From the NCBI RefSeq assembly GCF_041468085.1, contig NZ_CP121017.1, positions 1,033,501 through 1,097,500 on the forward strand: a stretch of DNA of 64,000 bases, read 5' to 3'. A program made the position numbers and the translations under genes. Position 1 is the first letter of the stretch. Each line of letters begins with the position of its first letter. The notes below the pieces were generated by a model, which was given only the letters and a program-made list of their open reading frames with translations, did not search any database and had not been told where the DNA came from. Origin of the DNA: Tistrella mobilis (GTDB lineage: Bacteria > Pseudomonadota > Alphaproteobacteria > Tistrellales > Tistrellaceae). Positions 3,837-14,505 of the stretch are shown piece by piece.

Positions 3837-3891
3837 GGGCTCCATGAGGCTGATTTTCATGTTGATTTTCAATGTATTATCAGAGGGTGGT

Positions 3892-3990
3892 GGTTCCTAA
3901 TAGACGGGTTTTGGTTCCTAAAAGACGGCTTTTGGTTCCCAATAGACGGCGCGCGGGCATTTTCTGATGTTCCCGGTTCCCAAAAGACGG
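3892..3990. repeat. Four iterons, GGTTCCYAAWAGACGG
   Basis: The copies are GGTTCCTAATAGACGG (3892-3907), GGTTCCTAAAAGACGG (3913-3928), GGTTCCCAATAGACGG (3934-3949) and GGTTCCCAAAAGACGG (3975-3990). The start-to-start distance is 21, 21 and 41 bases. Copies therefore sit on the same helix face, with one 21-bp slot vacant before the last. They differ only at the seventh and tenth bases. This is the standard arrangement for binding a plasmid Rep initiator. Confidence 0.8.
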
Positions 3991-4154: not shown

Positions 4155-6566
4155 ATGCCGTTTTATGCCCATTCGCTGAAGGACCGGCCCGAGACCGCGT
4201 GGCATCTGCTGGCCGATCACCTGCGGGCGGTGGGCGAGGGCGCGGGGTTTCGGGCGGCGCGGTTCGGGCAGGAGAGCGTTGCCCGGACGGCCGGGCTGCT
4301 GCATGACAGCGGCAAGTATTCCCCGGAATTTCAGGCGCGGCTGCGCGGGGATGTCGCCAAGGTCGATCATGCGACCTGGGGCGCGCGGGTGATGTCCGAC
4401 ATGATCCGCGACCGCGCCGGCGGGCTGGCCGGGGGTCTGCCCGGGGCGCAGGCGGTGCTCTATGCCGTGGCCGGGCATCATGCCGGGCTGGCCGATTTCG
4501 AGGATCAGGGCGATGGTGGCCGCGGCAGCCTGCGGGAGCGGGTGGAGAAGAAGCGGCTCGATGATGCCTCGGCCTGGAAAGACGAGATCCCGCCGCCCGA
4601 ACCGGATGAGAGCTGGCTCCGTCTGCCGCCGCCGCGGCCGGGGGAGGCGCCGGACGACCGCGCCGGGTTCCGCTTCGCGGTGATGACCCGGATGGTGTTC
4701 TCCTGCCTGGTGGATGCCGATTACGCCGACACCGCCGGTTTTCATGCCGCCGCCGAGGGCCGGGAGGATCCGGAGGCGGGTTTCGCACCCGCGCCCATGG
4801 CGGTGCTGCGGGGGCGGGTGGACGGGTTCATCGACGGCCTCGCCGCCGATGCTGCGGCCAGGGCCGCCGGGCAGGCGGGGGCGGAGCGGGTGGTGGCCGC
4901 CCGCGCCGGGGTGTTGGCCGATTGCCGGGCGGCGGCATCGGCAGGGCAGGGGGTGTTCTCGCTTTCGGTGCCGACCGGCGGCGGCAAGACGCTGGCCTCG
5001 CTCGCCTTCGCGCTGACCCATGCCGAGGCGCATGGCCTCGACCGGGTGATCATCGTCATCCCCTATACCTCGATCATCGAGCAGACCGCCGGGGTGATCC
5101 GGGCGGCGCTCGGGCCGGAGCTGGCCGATCAGGTGCTGGAACATCACAGCGCCTTCGATACCGAAGCCGATCTGGACCGCCGCAACATCCCGCCGGAGGC
5201 CCAGGAGCGCTGGCAGGGCCGCGACAAGCTGCGCCGGGCGATGGAGCGCTGGAACCGGCCGATCATCGTCACCACCGCCGTGCAGTTCCTGGAAAGCCTG
5301 TTCTCGGACCGCCCGGCGCGCTGCCGCAAATTGCAGGCGATCCCGCGCTCGGTGGTGATCCTGGACGAGGCCCATATGATGCCCCGCGGCCTGCTGCGCC
5401 CGACGGTCGCGATGCTCGACGAGCTGGCGGCGAATTACCGGGTGACGGTGGTGCTGGCGACGGCGACGCAGCCGGTGCTGGTGGCGCCCGACGACAGCCA
5501 GGAGGTCGTGGACGAATACGCCCAGGTGTTCGGGCTGGAGGGCGGGTTCCGGGCGGTGCGCGAGATCGTCTCCGACGCTTCTGCCCTGCATCAGCGGCTG
5601 GCGCGGGTGCGTGTGCAGGATGCGGGCAGTCTGGACGATGCCGGCGTGATCGCGCGGCTTCTGACCACGCCCCAGGCGCTGGCGGTGGTCGACACCCGCC
5701 TTCATGCCCGGCGGCTTTACGAGGCACTGGCGGCAGCGGCGCCCGAGGGCGCGTTCCACCTGTCGGCGCTGATGACCGCCGCCCATCGCAGCCGGCGGCT
5801 GGACGAGATCCGCGCCCGGCTGGCGGCGGGCGGGGCCTGCCGGATCATTTCCACCACCGTCATCGAATGCGGCGTCGATATCGACCTGCCGATGGTGCTG
5901 CGCGCGGCGGCGGGTTTCGATTCGATCGCCCAGGCCGCGGGGCGCTGCAACCGCGAGGGCCGGCTGGGCCAGGGCGGGATCGTCGAGGTCTTCACCCCCG
6001 CCGACCCGGCGGACCAGCCCAAACGCCTGGCCCAGGCGCTGGCGGCGGCCGCGACGGCGCGGACATTGATGGCCGAGCAGGGCATCGCCGACCCGCTCTC
6101 GCCCGAGGCGATGCGGCTCTATTTCGACGCTCTGTTCTGGCAGATGCTCGACAAGCTGGACGGCGCAAACATCATGGCGCTGCACGACAGCCCGCGGCGC
6201 CTCGCCATCCCCTTCGCCACCATCGCCGCCCTCTACCGGATCATCGAGGACGGCATGCTGCCGCTGATCATCCCGACCACGCCCGAGGCCGAAGCCTGCG
6301 TGGCGGCACTGGATGCCGCCGACCCGGCCGCCCTCGACCGCTTCGGCGGCGCTGGCGGGGCCGCACGGCTGCTGCAACGCCATGTCGTGACCCTGCCGCC
6401 GCGGATCCGGAAGATGCTGGTGGAGGCAAGTGCGGCGCGTGTGGTGGGTGGGGAGCGGTATGGGGAGCAGTTCATGGTTCTGACCAATTCCAGCCTGTAC
6501 CGCGAGGATGTGGGGTTGGTTTGGGACGAGCCGGCGTTTGTGGCGGTGGAAAAACTGCTCTTCTGA
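4155..6566 (+). CDS. cas3: Type I-C CRISPR-associated helicase-nuclease Cas3 (HD plus DExD/H)
   Basis: An 803-aa fused HD nuclease and superfamily 2 helicase, the length usual for type I-C. The N-terminal HD domain shows H6 (YAHS), the HD pair H50-D51 (LLHDSGK) and a later GHHAG motif near residue 115. The helicase has Walker A VPTGGGKT near 272, a DEAH box (LDEAHMM) near 403, motif III TATQP, and late motifs around STTVIECGVDID and QAAGRCNREGR. Cas3 is recruited by Cascade bound to a target and degrades the DNA. All key motifs are intact. It is the first cas gene; cas5c follows after 199 bp that hold a guide-like RNA element. Confidence 0.97.
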   Translation: MPFYAHSLKDRPETAWHLLADHLRAVGEGAGFRAARFGQESVARTAGLLHDSGKYSPEFQARLRGDVAKVDHATWGARVMSDMIRDRAGGLAGGLPGAQAVLYAVAGHHAGLADFEDQGDGGRGSLRERVEKKRLDDASAWKDEIPPPEPDESWLRLPPPRPGEAPDDRAGFRFAVMTRMVFSCLVDADYADTAGFHAAAEGREDPEAGFAPAPMAVLRGRVDGFIDGLAADAAARAAGQAGAERVVAARAGVLADCRAAASAGQGVFSLSVPTGGGKTLASLAFALTHAEAHGLDRVIIVIPYTSIIEQTAGVIRAALGPELADQVLEHHSAFDTEADLDRRNIPPEAQERWQGRDKLRRAMERWNRPIIVTTAVQFLESLFSDRPARCRKLQAIPRSVVILDEAHMMPRGLLRPTVAMLDELAANYRVTVVLATATQPVLVAPDDSQEVVDEYAQVFGLEGGFRAVREIVSDASALHQRLARVRVQDAGSLDDAGVIARLLTTPQALAVVDTRLHARRLYEALAAAAPEGAFHLSALMTAAHRSRRLDEIRARLAAGGACRIISTTVIECGVDIDLPMVLRAAAGFDSIAQAAGRCNREGRLGQGGIVEVFTPADPADQPKRLAQALAAAATARTLMAEQGIADPLSPEAMRLYFDALFWQMLDKLDGANIMALHDSPRRLAIPFATIAALYRIIEDGMLPLIIPTTPEAEACVAALDAADPAALDRFGGAGGAARLLQRHVVTLPPRIRKMLVEASAARVVGGERYGEQFMVLTNSSLYREDVGLVWDEPAFVAVEKLLF

Positions 6567-6569
6567 CGT

Positions 6570-6586
6570 TTTCAAAATCATCAGAA
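6570..6586 (-). promoter_or_regulatory. Self-target site (PAM plus seed) for the guide-like RNA, upstream of the cas5c-8c-7c promoter
   Basis: On the minus strand the bases complementary to 6584-6586 read TTC, the type I-C PAM. Reading on from 6583, the next 14 bases are TGATGATTTTGAAA. The sequence right after the repeat handle at 6678 is TGATGTTTTTGGAA. They agree at 12 of 14 positions and differ only at 6 and 12, the positions type I Cascade flips out and does not read. Beyond position 14 the match stops, as expected of a site that is bound but not cut. The PAM lies seven bases from the -35 element. Confidence 0.75.
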
Positions 6587-6593
6587 ATAGCGC

Positions 6594-6623
6594 TTGACGC
6601 TCATTCTTCCAAAAGGGAATAAT
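6594..6623 (+). promoter_or_regulatory. Sigma70-like promoter for the repeat-like RNA and cas5c-cas8c-cas7c
   Basis: TTGACG (6594-6599) and AATAAT (6618-6623) are separated by 18 bases. Transcription would begin near 6630, about a dozen bases before the repeat-like element at 6642. No equally good promoter is visible between that element and cas5c, so this one probably also drives the three downstream cas genes. Confidence 0.55.
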
Positions 6624-6641
6624 GTGGTTACAAATTACTCT

Positions 6642-6725
6642 GTCGGCTGATATTTCACATCGGCCGTGGGTTGAAACTGATGTTTTTGGAAGACGGTCAT
6701 CCGGGGGCCGGCGGCGTCGGCCCCC
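6642..6725 (+). ncRNA. Solitary type I-C repeat-like element with pseudo-spacer: candidate CreR-type guide RNA
   Basis: A 36-base element (6642-6677) has the layout of a type I-C CRISPR repeat. After GT comes the stem CGGCTGAT/ATCGGCCG (6644-6651 with 6659-6666, one U-G pair), a 7-base loop (6652-6658), then the 11-base handle TGGGTTGAAAC (6667-6677). Family I-C repeats end in TGGATTGAAAC. Cas5c would be expected to cut at 6666/6667. The guide would start at 6678 with TGATGTTTTTGGAAGACGG. A strong hairpin follows (6703-6710 with 6718-6725, GGGGGCCG/CGGCCCCC) and may define or protect the 3' end. No second complete repeat follows, so this is not an array. Known CreR and CreA RNAs have this form; the functional reading is inference. 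Confidence 0.7.
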
Positions 6726-6765
6726 AACGACCCTTCATGTCTTCTCCCTCGGAAAGGTGAGGACG

Positions 6766-7431
6766 ATGGCTTTCGGCGTTCGGCTCCACGTCACCGGTCC
6801 GCGTGCGCTCTACACACGCCCGGAGATGAAAGTGGAGCGCGTGTCATATGATGTTATGACACCTTCTGCGGCGCGCGGGATCATAGAGGCGATCCACTGG
6901 AAACCGGCGATCCGCTGGCGGATCGACCGGATCATCGTGCTCAACCCGATCCGCTTCGAGACCATAAGGCGCAACGAGGTCGGCTCGAAGATCGCGGCCG
7001 GGGTGGTCAAGCGGGCGCGGGCGGCCGGGAGTACCGCGGGCGTCTATACCATCGTCGAGGAAGACCGCCAGCAGCGCGCCTCGGTGGTGCTGCGCGATGT
7101 CGCCTATATCATCGAGGCCCATTTCGAGCTGACCGCGGCGGCGGGGCCGTCGGACAACGAGGGCAAGCATCTCGACATCTTCAACCGGCGGCTGGCGCGC
7201 GGGCAGTGCTATCAGCAGCCTTGCCTGGGCACGCGCGAATTCGCCGCCGATTTCGGGCCGGTGGAGGGTGATCCGGTGCCACATGCGGACCTGGCCGGCA
7301 CGCGGGATCTGGGCTGGATGCTTTATGACATCGACTATGCCCATGGCATGCAGCCGCGTTTCTTCCGGGCACGGATGGTCGATGGCGTGATCACGGTGCC
7401 GCCGCCGCAGTCGGATGAGGTGGTGTCGTGA
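6766..7431 (+). CDS. cas5c: Type I-C Cas5c (Cas5d), crRNA-processing endoribonuclease and Cascade subunit
   Basis: A 221-aa RAMP protein. In type I-C this subunit replaces Cas6: it cuts the repeat RNA at the base of its stem and caps the 5' handle in Cascade. The family block runs from PEMKVERVSYDV to EAIHWKPAIRW (residues 19-51). K134-H135 in the GKH motif fit the catalytic Lys-His pair of the Bacillus halodurans enzyme; the position of its tyrosine appears to be His44 here. I chose the ATG at 6766 because GGAAAGGTGAGGA precedes it. Starting further upstream would put the guide-like RNA inside the coding region. The stop overlaps the GTG start of cas8c. Confidence 0.95.
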   Translation: MAFGVRLHVTGPRALYTRPEMKVERVSYDVMTPSAARGIIEAIHWKPAIRWRIDRIIVLNPIRFETIRRNEVGSKIAAGVVKRARAAGSTAGVYTIVEEDRQQRASVVLRDVAYIIEAHFELTAAAGPSDNEGKHLDIFNRRLARGQCYQQPCLGTREFAADFGPVEGDPVPHADLAGTRDLGWMLYDIDYAHGMQPRFFRARMVDGVITVPPPQSDEVVS

Positions 7432-9338
7432 TCCTGCAGCAGCTGTCCGAGTATTACGACCGCCGGATCGAGGGCGGGGATACCGATCTTCCCGAAGAGG
7501 GGATGTCGGAACAGGCGATCGACGCCGCGGTCGATCTGGAGCGGTTCCAGCCGGGCGGCGTGCCGCCGGTGCTGTTGCTGGGCGACCGCAGCGGCAAGAA
7601 ACCGAAACCGCTGCGCATGACGGTGCCGGCGGCGATCAAGCGCACCTCGGGCGTGGCGGCCAATTTCCTCTGGGACAAATCCGCCTATGTGCTGGGCGTG
7701 AAGCGCGCCGGCAAGACGCCGGATGCCGGTGCGGTGGCGGCCGAGAAGGAGTTCGAGGCCTTCCGGCAGCTGCATACCGAGGCGCTGGCGGGAACCGAGG
7801 ACCGCGCCCTGCTCAAGCTGCTGGAATTCCTGGAGGACTGGACACCCGAACGGGCGGTGGCGGCGGTCGAGGCCGGCGAAATTCCGATCGAAGCCGTGGA
7901 CGGTAATCTCATTTTCCGCTTCGGCCGTGGCACCGTGCGTGATCTGCACCGCTTCCGGGCGGCCCGGGCCGCCTGGGCAGCACGACGCGAAGCGGTGGCG
8001 GGGGCGGCCGGGCGTTGCCTGGTCAGCGGCATCGTGGCCCCGATCGCCAAGCTGCACCCCTCGATTAAGGGCGTGCGTGGTGCGCAGACCGCTGGTGCCT
8101 CTCTCGTCTCGTTCAATCTGAGTGCCTTCACCTCCTTCGGCAAGGAACAGGGGGCGAATGCGCCGATTTCGGAACGGGTCGCCTTCGCCTATGGCGCGGT
8201 GCTGAACAAGCTGCTGGCGCCCGATGGCGCACACCGGGTGCAGATCGGCGATGCAACCACGGTGTTCTGGACCGACGCCCCCAACCCCGCCGACGACACC
8301 GCAAGCCGCGTGCTCGTCAATGCCGTCTCCCCCACTTACGGGCTGATGGACGAGGACGCGGGTGCAGAGGTCGACGAGGCGGGCGAGGACGGCACCGCAA
8401 AAAAGCCCAAAATCGACCTGAAGATGAGCGACGAGGAGGCGAAGCGGGTTCGCACCGCGCTCTCGGCGCTCGCCCGCGGGCGGACGATGGGCGAGGCGAT
8501 CTCGGCGGATCTCCACCCCGATACCCGGCTCTGGGTGCTGGGGCTGGCGCCCAACGCCGCCCGGCTGGCGCTGCGCTTCTGGTACGAAGACCGGCTGGGC
8601 GATGCGGTCGATCATGTCCGCCAGCACTGGCACGACCTCCGCCTCGACCCCGGCATCGATCCGGGGCGGCCGGTGTCGGTTTATGCGCTGCTGAAGGCCC
8701 TGGCGCCGCAGGGCAAGCTCGACAATCTGCCGCCCAAGCTTGGCGGCGACATCATGCGGGCGGTGCTGAGCGGCCGCCCGTACCCCGCCAATATGGCGGC
8801 ACTGGCGCTGATGCGCATCCGTGCCGACGGAGAGATTTCCGCCCTCAGGGTCGCCATGCTCAAGGCCTGGCTGCTCCGGCGGTCGGGAAAGGAACCCCTG
8901 GAGAGGGAGGGCGATCTCGTGAGTCTGGATCCTGCCGAAACCAATACCGGCTACCGGCTGGGGCGGCTGTTTGCGGTGCTGGAGAACCTTCAGCGGGCGG
9001 CACTGCCGGGGCTGAACGCCACCATCCGCGACCGGTTCTACGGCGCGGCCTCGGCAACGCCCGGGTCGATCTTCCCGGTGCTGATGCGGGGGAGCACCCA
9101 TCACGCGGCGAAGCTGCGCAAGGATCGCGGCGGTCTTGCCCACTGGTACGACACGACGATCGCCGAGGTGATCGACGGCCTGCCCTCGAACCTGCCGCGC
9201 CATCTGGGGGTGGAGGATCAGGGCCGGTTCGCGATCGGCTATTTCCATCAGCGTCAGGCGATGATGACCCGCGCCCCGGCCGAGGTGAAGGCCGCGGAGG
9301 CCGGCGAGCCGGCCGCGGTCGGCGACGACGACGCCTGA
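7428..9338 (+). CDS. cas8c: Type I-C Cascade large subunit Cas8c (Csd1)
   Basis: A 636-aa protein of normal Csd1 length. It carries family-typical segments such as SGKKPKPLRMTVPAAIKRTSG, NFLWDKSAYVLG, SLVSFNLSAFTSFGKEQG and GAVLNKLLA. Cas8c recognises the TTC PAM and, in characterised I-C systems, an internal start site in its gene makes a separate small subunit. No cas11c gene is present, so the same arrangement is likely here. The start is GTG at 7428, overlapping the cas5c stop (GTGA), which implies translational coupling. The gene is intact. Confidence 0.95.
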   Translation: MILQQLSEYYDRRIEGGDTDLPEEGMSEQAIDAAVDLERFQPGGVPPVLLLGDRSGKKPKPLRMTVPAAIKRTSGVAANFLWDKSAYVLGVKRAGKTPDAGAVAAEKEFEAFRQLHTEALAGTEDRALLKLLEFLEDWTPERAVAAVEAGEIPIEAVDGNLIFRFGRGTVRDLHRFRAARAAWAARREAVAGAAGRCLVSGIVAPIAKLHPSIKGVRGAQTAGASLVSFNLSAFTSFGKEQGANAPISERVAFAYGAVLNKLLAPDGAHRVQIGDATTVFWTDAPNPADDTASRVLVNAVSPTYGLMDEDAGAEVDEAGEDGTAKKPKIDLKMSDEEAKRVRTALSALARGRTMGEAISADLHPDTRLWVLGLAPNAARLALRFWYEDRLGDAVDHVRQHWHDLRLDPGIDPGRPVSVYALLKALAPQGKLDNLPPKLGGDIMRAVLSGRPYPANMAALALMRIRADGEISALRVAMLKAWLLRRSGKEPLEREGDLVSLDPAETNTGYRLGRLFAVLENLQRAALPGLNATIRDRFYGAASATPGSIFPVLMRGSTHHAAKLRKDRGGLAHWYDTTIAEVIDGLPSNLPRHLGVEDQGRFAIGYFHQRQAMMTRAPAEVKAAEAGEPAAVGDDDA

Positions 9339-9395: not shown

Positions 9396-10268
9396 ATGAC
9401 CGCGATCAGCAACCGCTATGATTTCGTCTATCTCTTCGACGTCACCAACGGCAACCCGAACGGCGACCCGGATGCCGGCAACCTGCCGCGACTCGACCCC
9501 GAGACCAATCAGGGGCTGGTGACCGATGTCAGCCTGAAGCGCAAGGTGCGCAATTTCGTCGACATGGTCGCCGGCAGCACGCCCGGCCATGAGATCTACA
9601 TGCGGGAGCGCTCGTATCTGAACGAGCAGCACGAACGTGCCTACAAGGCGCTCGACATCAAGCCTGAGCCGAAGAAGCTGCCCAAGAAGGAGGAAGAGGC
9701 GCGCGCGGTGACCGCCTGGATGTGCGCCAATTTCTTCGACATCCGCACCTTCGGCGCGGTGATGACCACCGAGATGAACACCGGCCAGGTCCGCGGCCCG
9801 GTGCAGCTGACCTTCGCGACCTCGATCGACCCGATCATGCCGCTCGAAATCTCGATCACCCGCATGGCCGCGACCAAGGAAGAGCCGGGCAAGAACGACA
9901 TCCGCACCATGGGCCGTAAGCATATCGTGCCCTACGGTCTCTATCGTGCCCATGGCTTCATCAGCGCCCATCTGGCGGGGCGGACCGGCTTTTCTGACGA
10001 CGACCTCGCCTTGTTCTGGGCGGCGCTGCAGAACATGTTCGACCACGACCGCTCGGCTGCACGCGGGGAGATGACCGCGCGCGAACTGGTGGTGTTCCGG
10101 CATGACAGCGCCATCGGCAACGCCCCGGCGCACAAGCTGTTCAAGCGCGTAACCGTCACCCGCGCCACCCCCGACGAGGCCCGCCCGCCGCGCAGCTTCG
10201 ACGACTACCGCGTGGAGGTGGACACCGCCGGGCTGCCCGAGGGGATTACGGTCGAGCGGATGATCTGA
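9396..10268 (+). CDS. cas7c: Type I-C Cascade backbone subunit Cas7c (Csd2)
   Basis: A 290-aa RAMP protein whose N-terminus carries the Csd2 signature [18 protein letters not shown], followed by [15 protein letters not shown] and later [11 protein letters not shown] and [18 protein letters not shown]. Several copies form the helical backbone along the crRNA spacer. It starts 57 bp after cas8c. In complete I-C loci cas4, cas1, cas2 and an array follow at this point. Here a drop in GC and an unrelated nuclease-ATPase gene follow instead, so the adaptation genes appear to be absent or lost. Confidence 0.96.
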
Positions 10269-10749: not shown

Positions 10750-13700
10750 ATGTCGGCGGGGTCAAACGCAGGCCGCGGTTTCCGTTATCAGGACCATCTG
10801 GGGGCATTATTTGCCATAAGAATGGTAACTGGGGAAATCAATTTTCATGAACTCGTCCCCGAGGGCTCCGATGACTACGAATTACGCGCGAATGATGGAC
10901 GAATTATGCTGGTGGATGCCAAGTCAACGCGCCCCGGTGCTCGGCCTCGTAGCAACGCTGAAGACATTAAATCGTTCAAGAATTTGTGGCGCAGGTCAGT
11001 AGATTTAGATGCCAATATTGTGCAATATATTCTCGTTTGTGAGCGTTCGAAAAACATCAATAAAGAAAAAATTGTTCCGGCGAGTATATTATTTAAAAAT
11101 TCTCCGCCTGAGGCGCGACAATCTTTCTTGATGATTGAGCCTGATCCTTTGGCATCAGCAATGTCATTACTTATAGATTATAAGAATGTGACGCCGATCT
11201 CAGCTGAATTAACGGCGATCACACTTGCTCGCGAAGTGGGGCATCTAGCGAGTCTGAATGGGGATCGATCAGGTGAAAATAAAAGATATTTAACTGTAAA
11301 CGATATAGACAAGATTATCTCACATGTACTCTTAGCAGTAGATTCATCTCGACTCAAACAACTTCTTGTGTCCGGATTCTGTGCGTTTGTAGATTTAGAT
11401 TCTCAAATATTTGATGATGGGTTCTATTTGGGGGTCGATGTACAGCCGGGTCATTTTGCGGCTGGCCTCGCTATCGATCGGCCTGATGCTACCGCACCTA
11501 TCCTCCATGGGCTCGAAAAAACACGTGCGGTTATTGTCACGGGGCCTTCAGGAGCGGGGAAATCGGGGTTGATGTGGAATGCGGTAATTGCTGCACGCAG
11601 TCATCGCCGTTGGCTCAGGGTCAATGGTGTAGATGCTCCTGACAACGACGCACTGACAGCCTTTCTGGAGGCATATGCAAGTGTACCAATCGGCTTCGTT
11701 GTGGATGATGTTGGCCGAGGGAGACTGGAGGCCTGGAATGCTCTCCATTCTCGTTTGGCTTCGCACCCGAATTTAGTATTGCTCGGATCTGCACGTTCGG
11801 AAGATATAGCGCTTCTGTCAAGTCGACACAATATTCTTGAAATATTTGCAAAGCCAGATGAAAATCTCGCTAAAAATATTTGGGAGAAGATGCAAAAATT
11901 ATTACACACAAAGTGGCCTGGCTGGCGCGAACCCTGGAACAGATCCAACGGTCTTCTACTTGAGTACACCCATATTTTAAATAAAGGTCAGCGTCTTGAT
12001 GCTATAATTTCTGATCAAGTAAGTGTCAGACTCCGGGAAAAAAGAGACGATGAGCTAAATATTCTATCAGCAACAGCTCTCATTGCTGCTCACGGAGGCA
12101 CAGTTCTTTTAGATGATTTGTGTAACTCAATTCAAATAAATCGAGGAGATATGACTCGTGCTCTAGGTAGACTAATTGATGAGCATCTGCTGCGAATCAA
12201 CGAGGACCGTACACGAATCGTGGGTCTGCATTCGTTGCGAGCTATTGCGATCAGTAAGGTACTTTCTGCAGTGGGTTATTGTTCGGAACGTGAGCAGGCT
12301 GTTATTGCGTTGCAATTGGCAGCTCCTGACTCACTTGTTCAATGTGGCCGAGGTATTATAACTAGCGAAATCATAAACGAGACAGAAGCTACCAGAATCA
12401 TCTCCTGCCGCTTTTCGTCAAACTCTGTTCCTTCAGAGGTCAGTAACGCACTTCGTGGTTTGCGAGAAGGTGTACTTATATTATTGGCTCGTCAATGGGT
12501 AGAGGAGCTGGAAGTCCACGGTATACCACCTAAATTTGCAACATTTTCTGTTATAGTAGGGAATTCACCAAGTCAATTTCCAAATACTACAGATTTGCAG
12601 AAAGTAGCAGATCGGGGACGAGCTCTGATGGAGCGGGCGAGGTCGCGATTTCATCCTCCGTATATAACTTCAATAATATTTGAAGCACTTTTGTCGGAGA
12701 AAAAGATAGCTCCAGATGATCTGATCTGGATGCTCCGAATTCTTGTGAGTTCAAATTTGGATCTGCTTCAGAAAAACATCCTAGCTGAAATTTGCATTCC
12801 TTTTGAAAATTATGAGTTAGGGCAGATTATAGAGATAATGGATGCAGCTGAAGCAATAGATATTTTGATATCAAAATCCTATAAATCAAAATATATTAAT
12901 AAAAATAAACAAAATTTAATCGAAATTTTTGTGAAAAACACGCCTTTTTTTCTTCCGATTGTTTTTGATTTCTCTGATGAAAAAAAGATTGCGCGCGCTG
13001 ATATTTTTGAAGCAGTTTTGGATCGTAATGAAAATCCGAGCGAGCGGTTGTTTCGATACGCAAAATGTATTCTGCGACTTGACCCGTCAATTGATATCGC
13101 CTGCGTTAGGCTTGTAGATTTTTCTGGCAGAAAGTCACTTCAATTGGATGCAGAAAAAAGAATTTCTCGAGAAGTGGGATGTCCAGATGCTCTAGTTTAT
13201 TTAAATCATAGCGTGGTGGAAGCGGTCGCACGTGCCGTGGGTACTGATAGCTGGTCTGTGTATCTGTCACGAGGGATAAACCTTCTTACACAAGGATACC
13301 ACGCGCTCAATAAGTTACTGGATAGCGCTATGGTTAATTCGGTAAATGATAATGCTCTCAAGATATTGAACTCAATCGTGGATGAATGCGATAATTTACT
13401 TGCGCCGGCCGATCCCCCGACAATTTCAGATATTTCGTCTATGCCAATTAATATTACTTTGACACCTCTGCAACACTTGGTTTTCAGTTTAAATGGCCGA
13501 ATTGCCTACAATATTTGCAGCCTTCCGGAGGGCGCTCTACCGTTTGCGGTAAATATCTACGAATTGCGGCTTCACGTGGAAAAGGTTCGTGGGGAGCCGT
13601 GGTCGCTCATATATAAATCTGCACCTAAAATACTAGATTTTGTTGAGGAATTACTTATGGACATAGAGATCGTGGCGCTTGAAGCGGCTGCGTCCGGTGA

Positions 13701-14505
13701 GAAAATACAGAAACGCTGGACCATGCGTCACTCATCTTCAAAATCTGCATTTAAGGCTATCGTAACTAGATCAAAGAGTTCTCTTTCAAGAAGAATAATG
13801 GCGCGGGCGTGTATAATTAAGGAGATTGCGATGGAGGAGATTCCTAATATCAAGATATATGCTCCTTCTTTGGAAGATGGATGGCTATGGCCTTCGCGGT
13901 TTGTTGCGTCATTTCAGATTGAAGATTATGACAACTTTAAGAATTGGATAAGCAAGGCTACAGAAATAGGTGAAAGAATATATAATAAACTTTCATATAA
14001 TGAAGACATATGTGTAGCTCCGGTAATTAACAACATGATTCCTATGGACTATGCATATTTGTTGAGCCGTAGAAATCAACACAGCATTTTGAGTGAACAG
14101 GTGGGAGAGCCGATTCTGAGGATGATGTTGGGCGTTTATGATGAGAAAATACTCTCGCGTACAGGCATCACGCTCTTCAGGCGACCTCCTGAGTTCGATG
14201 AATTTTTTATTGCTCTGCGCGACTTTGTTGGTATGACGGCCCTGGGCCTGGGAGTAGAGGGGCGGCCGAAGCCCGAAGTGGAATATTATATGAAAATCCC
14301 GTCTTTTATCCGCAGTAAAGGGGAATATCTCCTCTCTTTTTTTGAAAAAATAACACACCAAGATGTCCAAGGTCTGCGAGAAATTCTAAGAAAGGCGTCA
14401 ATTTTTGAAATGAAAGATCAGCACGAGTTGGGCGATATTTCACTAGAAGAGTGGCGAGATGCTTATGCTCGGCTCGCATGGGAGCTAGCATTTACCAAGT
14501 GCTGA
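10750..14505 (+). CDS. Cap4-like nuclease (DUF4297-type) fused to a STAND-like ATPase; candidate antiphage defence protein
   Basis: A 1251-aa protein, AT-rich and with codon use unlike its neighbours. The N-terminus (about 9-150) resembles dsDNA-nuclease/Cap4 domains: GRGFRYQDHLGALFAI, then E34 and D41-D42, then DAK (56-58), fitting a restriction-type D...(D/E)xK core. An ATPase follows with Walker A GPSGAGKS (265-272) and a Walker B-like FVVDD (316-320). Next comes a winged-helix-like segment (about 430-510), then a long C-terminal part of about 700 residues with no motif I recognise, in the position of a STAND sensor. Nuclease-ATPase-sensor order is that of Avs-type antiphage proteins; this is inference from layout. 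It abuts the cas genes and stands alone on its strand. Confidence 0.7.
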   Translation: MSAGSNAGRGFRYQDHLGALFAIRMVTGEINFHELVPEGSDDYELRANDGRIMLVDAKSTRPGARPRSNAEDIKSFKNLWRRSVDLDANIVQYILVCERSKNINKEKIVPASILFKNSPPEARQSFLMIEPDPLASAMSLLIDYKNVTPISAELTAITLAREVGHLASLNGDRSGENKRYLTVNDIDKIISHVLLAVDSSRLKQLLVSGFCAFVDLDSQIFDDGFYLGVDVQPGHFAAGLAIDRPDATAPILHGLEKTRAVIVTGPSGAGKSGLMWNAVIAARSHRRWLRVNGVDAPDNDALTAFLEAYASVPIGFVVDDVGRGRLEAWNALHSRLASHPNLVLLGSARSEDIALLSSRHNILEIFAKPDENLAKNIWEKMQKLLHTKWPGWREPWNRSNGLLLEYTHILNKGQRLDAIISDQVSVRLREKRDDELNILSATALIAAHGGTVLLDDLCNSIQINRGDMTRALGRLIDEHLLRINEDRTRIVGLHSLRAIAISKVLSAVGYCSEREQAVIALQLAAPDSLVQCGRGIITSEIINETEATRIISCRFSSNSVPSEVSNALRGLREGVLILLARQWVEELEVHGIPPKFATFSVIVGNSPSQFPNTTDLQKVADRGRALMERARSRFHPPYITSIIFEALLSEKKIAPDDLIWMLRILVSSNLDLLQKNILAEICIPFENYELGQIIEIMDAAEAIDILISKSYKSKYINKNKQNLIEIFVKNTPFFLPIVFDFSDEKKIARADIFEAVLDRNENPSERLFRYAKCILRLDPSIDIACVRLVDFSGRKSLQLDAEKRISREVGCPDALVYLNHSVVEAVARAVGTDSWSVYLSRGINLLTQGYHALNKLLDSAMVNSVNDNALKILNSIVDECDNLLAPADPPTISDISSMPINITLTPLQHLVFSLNGRIAYNICSLPEGALPFAVNIYELRLHVEKVRGEPWSLIYKSAPKILDFVEELLMDIEIVALEAAASGEKIQKRWTMRHSSSKSAFKAIVTRSKSSLSRRIMARACIIKEIAMEEIPNIKIYAPSLEDGWLWPSRFVASFQIEDYDNFKNWISKATEIGERIYNKLSYNEDICVAPVINNMIPMDYAYLLSRRNQHSILSEQVGEPILRMMLGVYDEKILSRTGITLFRRPPEFDEFFIALRDFVGMTALGLGVEGRPKPEVEYYMKIPSFIRSKGEYLLSFFEKITHQDVQGLREILRKASIFEMKDQHELGDISLEEWRDAYARLAWELAFTKC

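Follow-up and report, generated by a model that had tools for sequence, protein, structure and literature searches.

The leader of the cas5c-cas8c-cas7c operon of Tistrella mobilis very probably encodes a type I-C CreR, that is a guide that would direct Cascade to the promoter of its own operon and repress it. The guide and a site next to this promoter agree at 12 of 14 positions, and guides of other sequences, each matching its own leader region, recur upstream of cas5c in relatives. Self-repression now has evolutionary support in subtype I-C, with conserved matching rules. We found no type I-C case of the CreR kind in the literature searched; the primary CreR paper, reportedly that of Liu et al. 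2023, and a survey of standalone repeats, said to be by Shmakov et al. 2023, may list some. The idea of autorepression is not new and is already cited for other subtypes, i.e. I-B, I-E and V-A (PMC13131331, as far as the excerpted text goes).

The cas5c leader of Tistrella mobilis

The stretch of DNA analysed (64,000 nucleotides, hereafter the window) carries a type I-C set of genes, all on the plus strand and assigned with profile models: cas3 (4155..6566; Cas3 HD and helicase models), cas5c (6766..7431; TIGR01876, 2.9e-54; closest solved chain 3vzi_A, 2e-98), cas8c (7428..9338; TIGR01863, 5.4e-149) and cas7c (9396..10268; TIGR02589, 1.1e-121). In the whole Tistrella genome (6,300,058 bases, 4 contigs) no Cas1c, i.e. 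no adaptation gene proper to type I-C, scored over the cut-off. Genes for cas1 of other systems are present, and I-C-type arrays are many and dispersed on contigs C1, C2 and C4 despite the lack of a Cas1c over the cut-off; 76 adjacent I-C repeat-pair matches were counted on these three contigs, with repeats ending in GTGGATTGAAAC.

Between cas3 and cas5c lie, in this order, a target, a PAM, a promoter-like site, a repeat-like unit, a guide and a G+C-rich hairpin. The target, in the promoter region of cas5c, is on the minus strand (6570..6583), just downstream of the cas3 stop codon (6564-6566), and the TTC PAM occupies 6584..6586 on the same strand. The promoter-like site is of the sigma-70 type, TTGACG-18-AATAAT (6594..6623, plus strand; TTGACG at 6594-6599, AATAAT at 6618-6623). 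One such site was found in 6450-6800, against 0.1 expected in shuffles. The gap between the PAM and the -35 box is 7 nt, the very spacing proposed in the initial annotation.

The repeat-like unit (psi-R, 36 nt, 6642..6677, plus strand) starts about 12 nt after the expected transcription start and is made of an 8-bp hairpin and an I-C-like 5' handle, GTGGGTTGAAAC. This handle has one exact copy in the window (6666-6677), ends 88 nt before cas5c and agrees with the end of the array repeats at 11 of 12 positions. The unit sits outside any array, beside the cas genes. The spacer-like part that follows it, the guide of the putative CreR RNA, extends over 6678..6702 on the plus strand. The last element is the G+C-rich hairpin (6703..6725, plus strand), with a 10-bp stem but neither a T run nor a handle; it is predicted in all three Tistrella loci and is possibly a degenerate second repeat or the 3' end.

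The guide at 6678-6691 (TGATGTTTTTGGAA) is identical to the minus strand at 6583-6570 (TGATGATTTTGAAA) at 12 of 14 positions, the mismatches falling only at positions 6 and 12, and the minus strand reads TTC at 6586-6584, directly before the match. Both statements had been made in the initial annotation and proved exact on re-reading of the sequence. The same source held a chance agreement to be very unlikely, and we likewise reject it on the uniqueness of the seed in the genome, on resampling nulls and on shuffled guides in the relatives. TTC followed by the ten seed letters (TTCTGATGNTTTTG) has a single occurrence in the 6,300,058 bases, at this target, i.e. the whole genome holds no other target with the exact seed after TTC. 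At the 12 readable positions (1–14 without 6 and 12) the observed match is 12/12; among 20,000 Markov-resampled copies of 6401-6677 the best match at a TTC site was 10/12 (18 times) and none reached 12/12, and among 4,284 AT-rich 14-mers drawn from the window downstream of 8001 the maximum was also 10/12 (5 times). A second target for the same guide, on the plus strand at 6561-6577, has three mismatches in TTC plus the readable positions and was discarded as unsupported.

Two further features of the neighbourhood were recorded. Between cas3 and an upstream ORF of 435 aa, itself without family matches, three to four iteron-like 21-nt repeats (TGGTTCCTAATAGACGGCTTT) occupy 3891-3990 and are possibly a remnant of plasmid replication. 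After the cas genes, 10750-14505 encodes a 1251-aa protein with weak matches to a Cap4 nuclease and a STAND NTPase, below the Pfam cut-offs, and with no match in PADLOC; PADLOC and PHROGs searches of the neighbouring ORFs gave nothing bearing on the guide element.

Guide-target pairs in relatives

Co-variation of seed and target had been suggested as a check, and we looked for it in two other Tistrella loci. In locus L041 (Tistrella G002, a second species) the guide is TGGCAATCTTGGAA and the target TGGCAATCTTGAAA, with a sole mismatch at position 12. Compared with the window, letters 3, 4, 5 and 8 have changed alike in guide and target, and letter 6 in the guide only. The probability of this agreement is about 6e-5 if the four target changes and the five guide changes are placed independently over 14 positions; the co-variation could also have come about if the region was exchanged as a whole and not through stepwise selection. 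In locus L042 (T. mobilis KA081020-065, G001, where plasmid pTM3 carries the locus) the guide is that of the window and the target has a mismatch at seed position 3 in addition to those at 6 and 12. The mismatch at position 3 counts against a strict version of the autorepression reading. Both loci have TTGACG at the identical distance from the target, and the hairpin of their repeat-like unit still folds despite altered letters; target and guide are 95-97 nt apart in the Tistrella leaders. These sister loci, with swapped guide and target letters in one and a natural seed mismatch in the other, provide ready test pairs.

The wider survey comprised 161 non-redundant cas5c loci, each with at least 400 nt upstream, and is not exhaustive. 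Its sources were genome contigs (those of 80 out of 138 relatives being retained), 6 out of 43 plasmid records, and searches of five overlapping sets of 3, 385, 398, 397 and 399 genomes; one of these searches gave loci for 30 of its 35 match rows. Repeats of one place were left out (L049 and L123, both the same place as L042, then L163, L187, L192, L036 and L038-L040), as were L037, a second Cas5-family gene of the genome that contains the window, and 8 further loci (5 with a short upstream region, 3 with identical cas5c starts). The viral relatives gave one locus, cut inside cas5c and of no use. A handle had to score at least 10/12 and lie no more than 300 nt from cas5c, and a seed had to score at least 8/10; these thresholds were set after the first cases had been seen.

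An I-C-like handle is present upstream of cas5c in 27 of the 161 loci (29 handles, 25 loci with one) and absent from 134. For 19 of these 27 loci a TTC-flanked target with a seed of at least 8/10 is found 95-272 nt upstream of the guide; the seed scores 10/10 in 10 loci, 9/10 in 7 and 8/10 in 2. The named members of the 19 include Alpha-, Beta- and Gammaproteobacteria. The initial annotation had made its reading depend on conservation of the pairing in relatives: in 19/161 loci, with guides of different sequence, the pairing recurs together with TTC and with positions 6 and 12 skipped, which supports the autorepression reading. By contrast with the real guides, which have a seed of at least 9/10 in 17 of 29 cases, shuffled guides (200 each) reach at least 9/10 in 5 of 5,800 cases and 10/10 in 0 of 5,800. 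Mapped onto a quick cas5c tree of 159 rows, the trait requires 14 changes, against a shuffle mean of 18.2, and 0 of 500 shuffles are as low; handle and target are thus distributed in a patchy but clustered way.

Disparities appear between these loci. No TTC target at the threshold was found in eight of the 27 handle-bearing loci (L078, L090, L105, L131, L172, L193, L200 and L205), of which L105 has a TTT-flanked site mismatched at 6, 12 and 14. These eight, and the 134 loci lacking a handle, count against the autorepression reading. L045 and L101 have their target on the opposite strand. One or two seed mismatches occur in 9 of the 19 loci, which counts against the autorepression reading given that, for the I-B CreA, every single seed mutation tested abolished function according to the excerpted report (PMC8501985). 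Locus L043 carries a second repeat-like unit (hairpin and a 10/12 handle) about 30 nt after the guide, i.e. a two-repeat mini-array.

The pairs were also searched for with fewer presuppositions. A handle-free test demanded TTC and at least 11/12 readable positions, minus-strand sites closer than 25 nt and two-letter guides being left out. It gave 30 pairs. A handle scoring at least 10/12 precedes 14 of them, and among the others the best handle scores 6/12; at 12/12 readable positions 10 of the 11 pairs follow a handle of at least 10/12 and the other is in the AT-rich L109. Other triplets taken as the PAM were rejected: six control triplets, tried on 87 loci, yielded 441 pairs of at least 9/10 with one behind a handle of at least 10/12, versus 90 pairs with 11 behind such a handle for TTC. 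When the handle was required and the PAM left free, 17 of the 20 sites with a seed of at least 9/10 followed TTC, a triplet that precedes 475 of the 27,840 sites (1.7%) in this test. Imposing neither PAM nor position pattern, we obtained 20 sites with at most three mismatches in 14, of which 16 follow TTC; their 45 mismatches include position 6 in 12 sites and position 12 in 17. That every sixth position is skipped, as the initial annotation had stated for type I guides, is seen across different guides as a clustering of mismatches at 6 and 12.

Position by position, the matches over the 19 loci are 19, 19, 17, 19 and 19 at positions 1–5, 7 at position 6, 16, 19, 16, 18 and 17 at positions 7–11, and 1 at position 12, the latter slightly rarer than chance (0.02). 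Positions 13 and 14 played no part in the selection and match in 17 of the 19 loci each. The proposal that homology stops after position 14 stands for the window, where guide positions 15-21 do not match the target flank; over the whole set of 19, positions 15 and 16 match in 12/19 loci each. From position 18 on the counts are near chance except at 26 (12/19) and 28 (9/19), uncorrected for the number of positions. Because different guides each follow their own promoter, these counts lend independent support from evolution to the Cascade seed rule, i.e. 1–5, 7–11 and 13–14 are read, and 6 and 12 skipped. A contribution of position 6 for some crRNAs in E. coli I-E, mentioned in the excerpted text of PMC5904413, counts against a strict form of the rule. 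Of the 17 minus-strand loci, 8 have a -35-like hexamer beside the PAM, i.e. one that agrees with TTGACA at 5/6 positions or more and is located between -2 and +12 relative to the start of the target; in background windows the count is 61 of 1,224. In the other 9 loci the hexamer is weaker, which counts against the autorepression reading.

Predicted autorepression and the putative peptides of longer leaders

A transcript starting at about 6630 would carry the repeat-like hairpin and the guide, followed by cas5c, cas8c and cas7c. As I-C repeats are cut by Cas5 (PMC10651486, excerpted text), Cas5c would probably cut below the hairpin and leave the 5' handle with the guide, an RNA expected to join Cas5c, Cas8c and Cas7c in a Cascade. 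This guide-loaded Cascade would recognise TTC and the partial match of 14 nt just before the -35 box, and would block the promoter. Guide and operon would be repressed while free Cascade is plentiful; the promoter would be released when ordinary crRNAs compete for Cascade or when anti-CRISPRs remove it, and would in effect sense the supply of Cascade. The match should be too short for cutting by Cas3. Binding without cutting is expected of 14 nt because interference needs a longer match: in Xanthomonas I-C, whose PAM is TTC, killing needs at least 27 bp (PMC8406640), and in E. coli I-E 5 bp can suffice for the binding of Cascade whereas interference takes at least about 18-25 (PMC5904413), as stated in the excerpts of these papers. 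The Cascade autorepression loop put forward in the initial annotation is supported, at the level of sequence, by the conserved pairing, the TTC, the skipped positions and the co-change in L041.

Like the CreRs described for I-B, I-E and V-A (PMC13131331, excerpt), the Tistrella element is a lone repeat-like unit near cas genes, without a toxin gene, and its guide is partly complementary to a cas promoter, here with a PAM. It differs from them by its subtype, Cas5 and not Cas6 being the enzyme that cuts the I-C repeat (excerpt of PMC10651486), and by the location of the guide, which is part of the leader of its own target operon. Its matching rules are those of CreTA/CreA of I-B haloarchaea: a TTC PAM, a seed at 1–5 and 7–11, positions 6 and 12 free and a promoter as target. 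In the available part of that study (PMC8501985) mutations at 1–5 or 7–11 of CreA destroyed function and mutations at 6 or 12 did not, and CreA represses the guide's own promoter, as predicted here for Tistrella. The I-E CreT/CreA of Citrobacter rodentium (PMC12055562, excerpted text) also lies in the intergenic region after cas3, with a partial promoter match and a small ORF in the region, but has another subtype and PAM, a translated toxin, and a guide placed upstream of the ORF on the opposite strand.

The likeness to CreTA raises the alternative of an addiction module, in which the promoter would also make a toxin and the guide act as antitoxin. The CreT of C. rodentium is a 96-bp ORF (excerpt of PMC12055562). 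In the leaders we considered ATG ORFs that have a hydrophobic segment and a stretch resembling a ribosome site; these criteria were chosen once cases were known. Between promoter and guide, 12 of the 16 longer leaders among the relatives (134-272 nt) contain such a hydrophobic ORF, of 29-62 codons (L043, L045, L050, L055, L059, L061, L076, L142, L144, L177, L186 and L195), against 0.21 expected from resampled leaders, and four do not (L067, L085, L101 and L130). Contrary to these, the three Tistrella leaders, with their some 12 nt before the repeat, are too short and hold no ORF of this description. For Tistrella an addiction module is thus very unlikely, an RNA toxin elsewhere in the leader being possible.

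In pairs, the predicted peptides of L059, L061, L144 and L186 have 10-15 of 32-33 residues in common, and those of L142 and L195 share 31 of 54. Synonymous versus nonsynonymous values are 1.01 vs 0.37 for L061/L144 and 0.37 vs 0.22 for L142/L195; this synonymous excess is weak evidence because unrelated leader-peptide pairs aligned likewise give similar values (0.87 vs 0.52 and 0.90 vs 0.48). Pfam returned one match for ten leader peptides (E 0.099). In L059, L061, L144 and L186 a stem of 9-15 bp encloses repeat and guide (pairing score 18-25 vs 10-17 in the other 15 loci); in L059, L061 and L144 this stem stops 2-5 nt short of the cas5c start, and might mask the cas5c ribosome site until the leader is cut.

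We regard the leader ORFs as candidates for Cascade-repressed peptides. The layout of the ORF-bearing relatives would be that of CreTA (a targeted promoter, a toxin and a guide) with a cas operon added downstream, and we infer that one promoter serves the peptide, the guide and the cas genes. It is possible, if on balance doubtful, that several proteobacterial I-C lineages express from one promoter a hydrophobic peptide, a Cascade guide against this promoter and cas5c-cas8c-cas7c, and so combine CreR with a CreTA-like control. If so, a single Cascade-guide pair would set the level of Cascade and restrain a membrane-active peptide, and both the peptide and fresh Cascade would be released at once when anti-CRISPRs attack or Cascade is lost. 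As the peptide-less form, Tistrella would then link CreR and CreTA. The leader peptides of the relatives suggest a hidden Cascade-repressed module in some I-C systems.

RNA pairing, a protein operator and a decoy repeat as improbable alternatives

The match might also act between RNAs, the guide RNA pairing with the tail of the cas3 mRNA, or within a long-range stem of a read-through transcript, without Cascade. The guide RNA is indeed complementary to the plus strand at 6570-6583, and the target starts three bases past the cas3 stop, on the transcript strand. Against this, TTC precedes 17 of the 20 strong matches obtained with the PAM left free, and the mismatches of the near-matches fall at 6 and 12 (12 and 17 of 45), which fits Cascade and not an RNA stem; moreover, L045 and L101 carry the target on the other strand. 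We consider this pairing highly improbable.

Just as improbable is a protein operator, in which a repressor would bind the imperfect dyad at 6561-6586 (TTCTGACG...CATCAGAA) and the likeness to the guide would be secondary. The target does form half of this dyad, with a half-site symmetry of 10/13 in the window. Against an operator, the symmetry falls to 8/13 in L041, which keeps the full guide match at the readable positions, and to 9/13 in L042, where dyad and match are both weakened.

The least probable alternative is a mere decoy, i.e. a lone repeat that titrates Cas5c and Cas7c like the solitary repeat of a phage (Racr), with an irrelevant guide: solitary repeats do inhibit I-C and I-F systems (PMC10651486, excerpted text), an effect compatible with autorepression, but a decoy needs no PAM-flanked match to its own promoter, yet such a match recurs, and the unit is linked to cas genes. 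Racr resembles the Tistrella unit as a lone I-C-like repeat and differs from it in being viral, in inhibiting assembly and, as it is described in the excerpt of the same paper, in having no match to its own promoter. Racr elements belong to viruses or mobile elements without cas genes; the Tistrella unit is found directly before cas5c.
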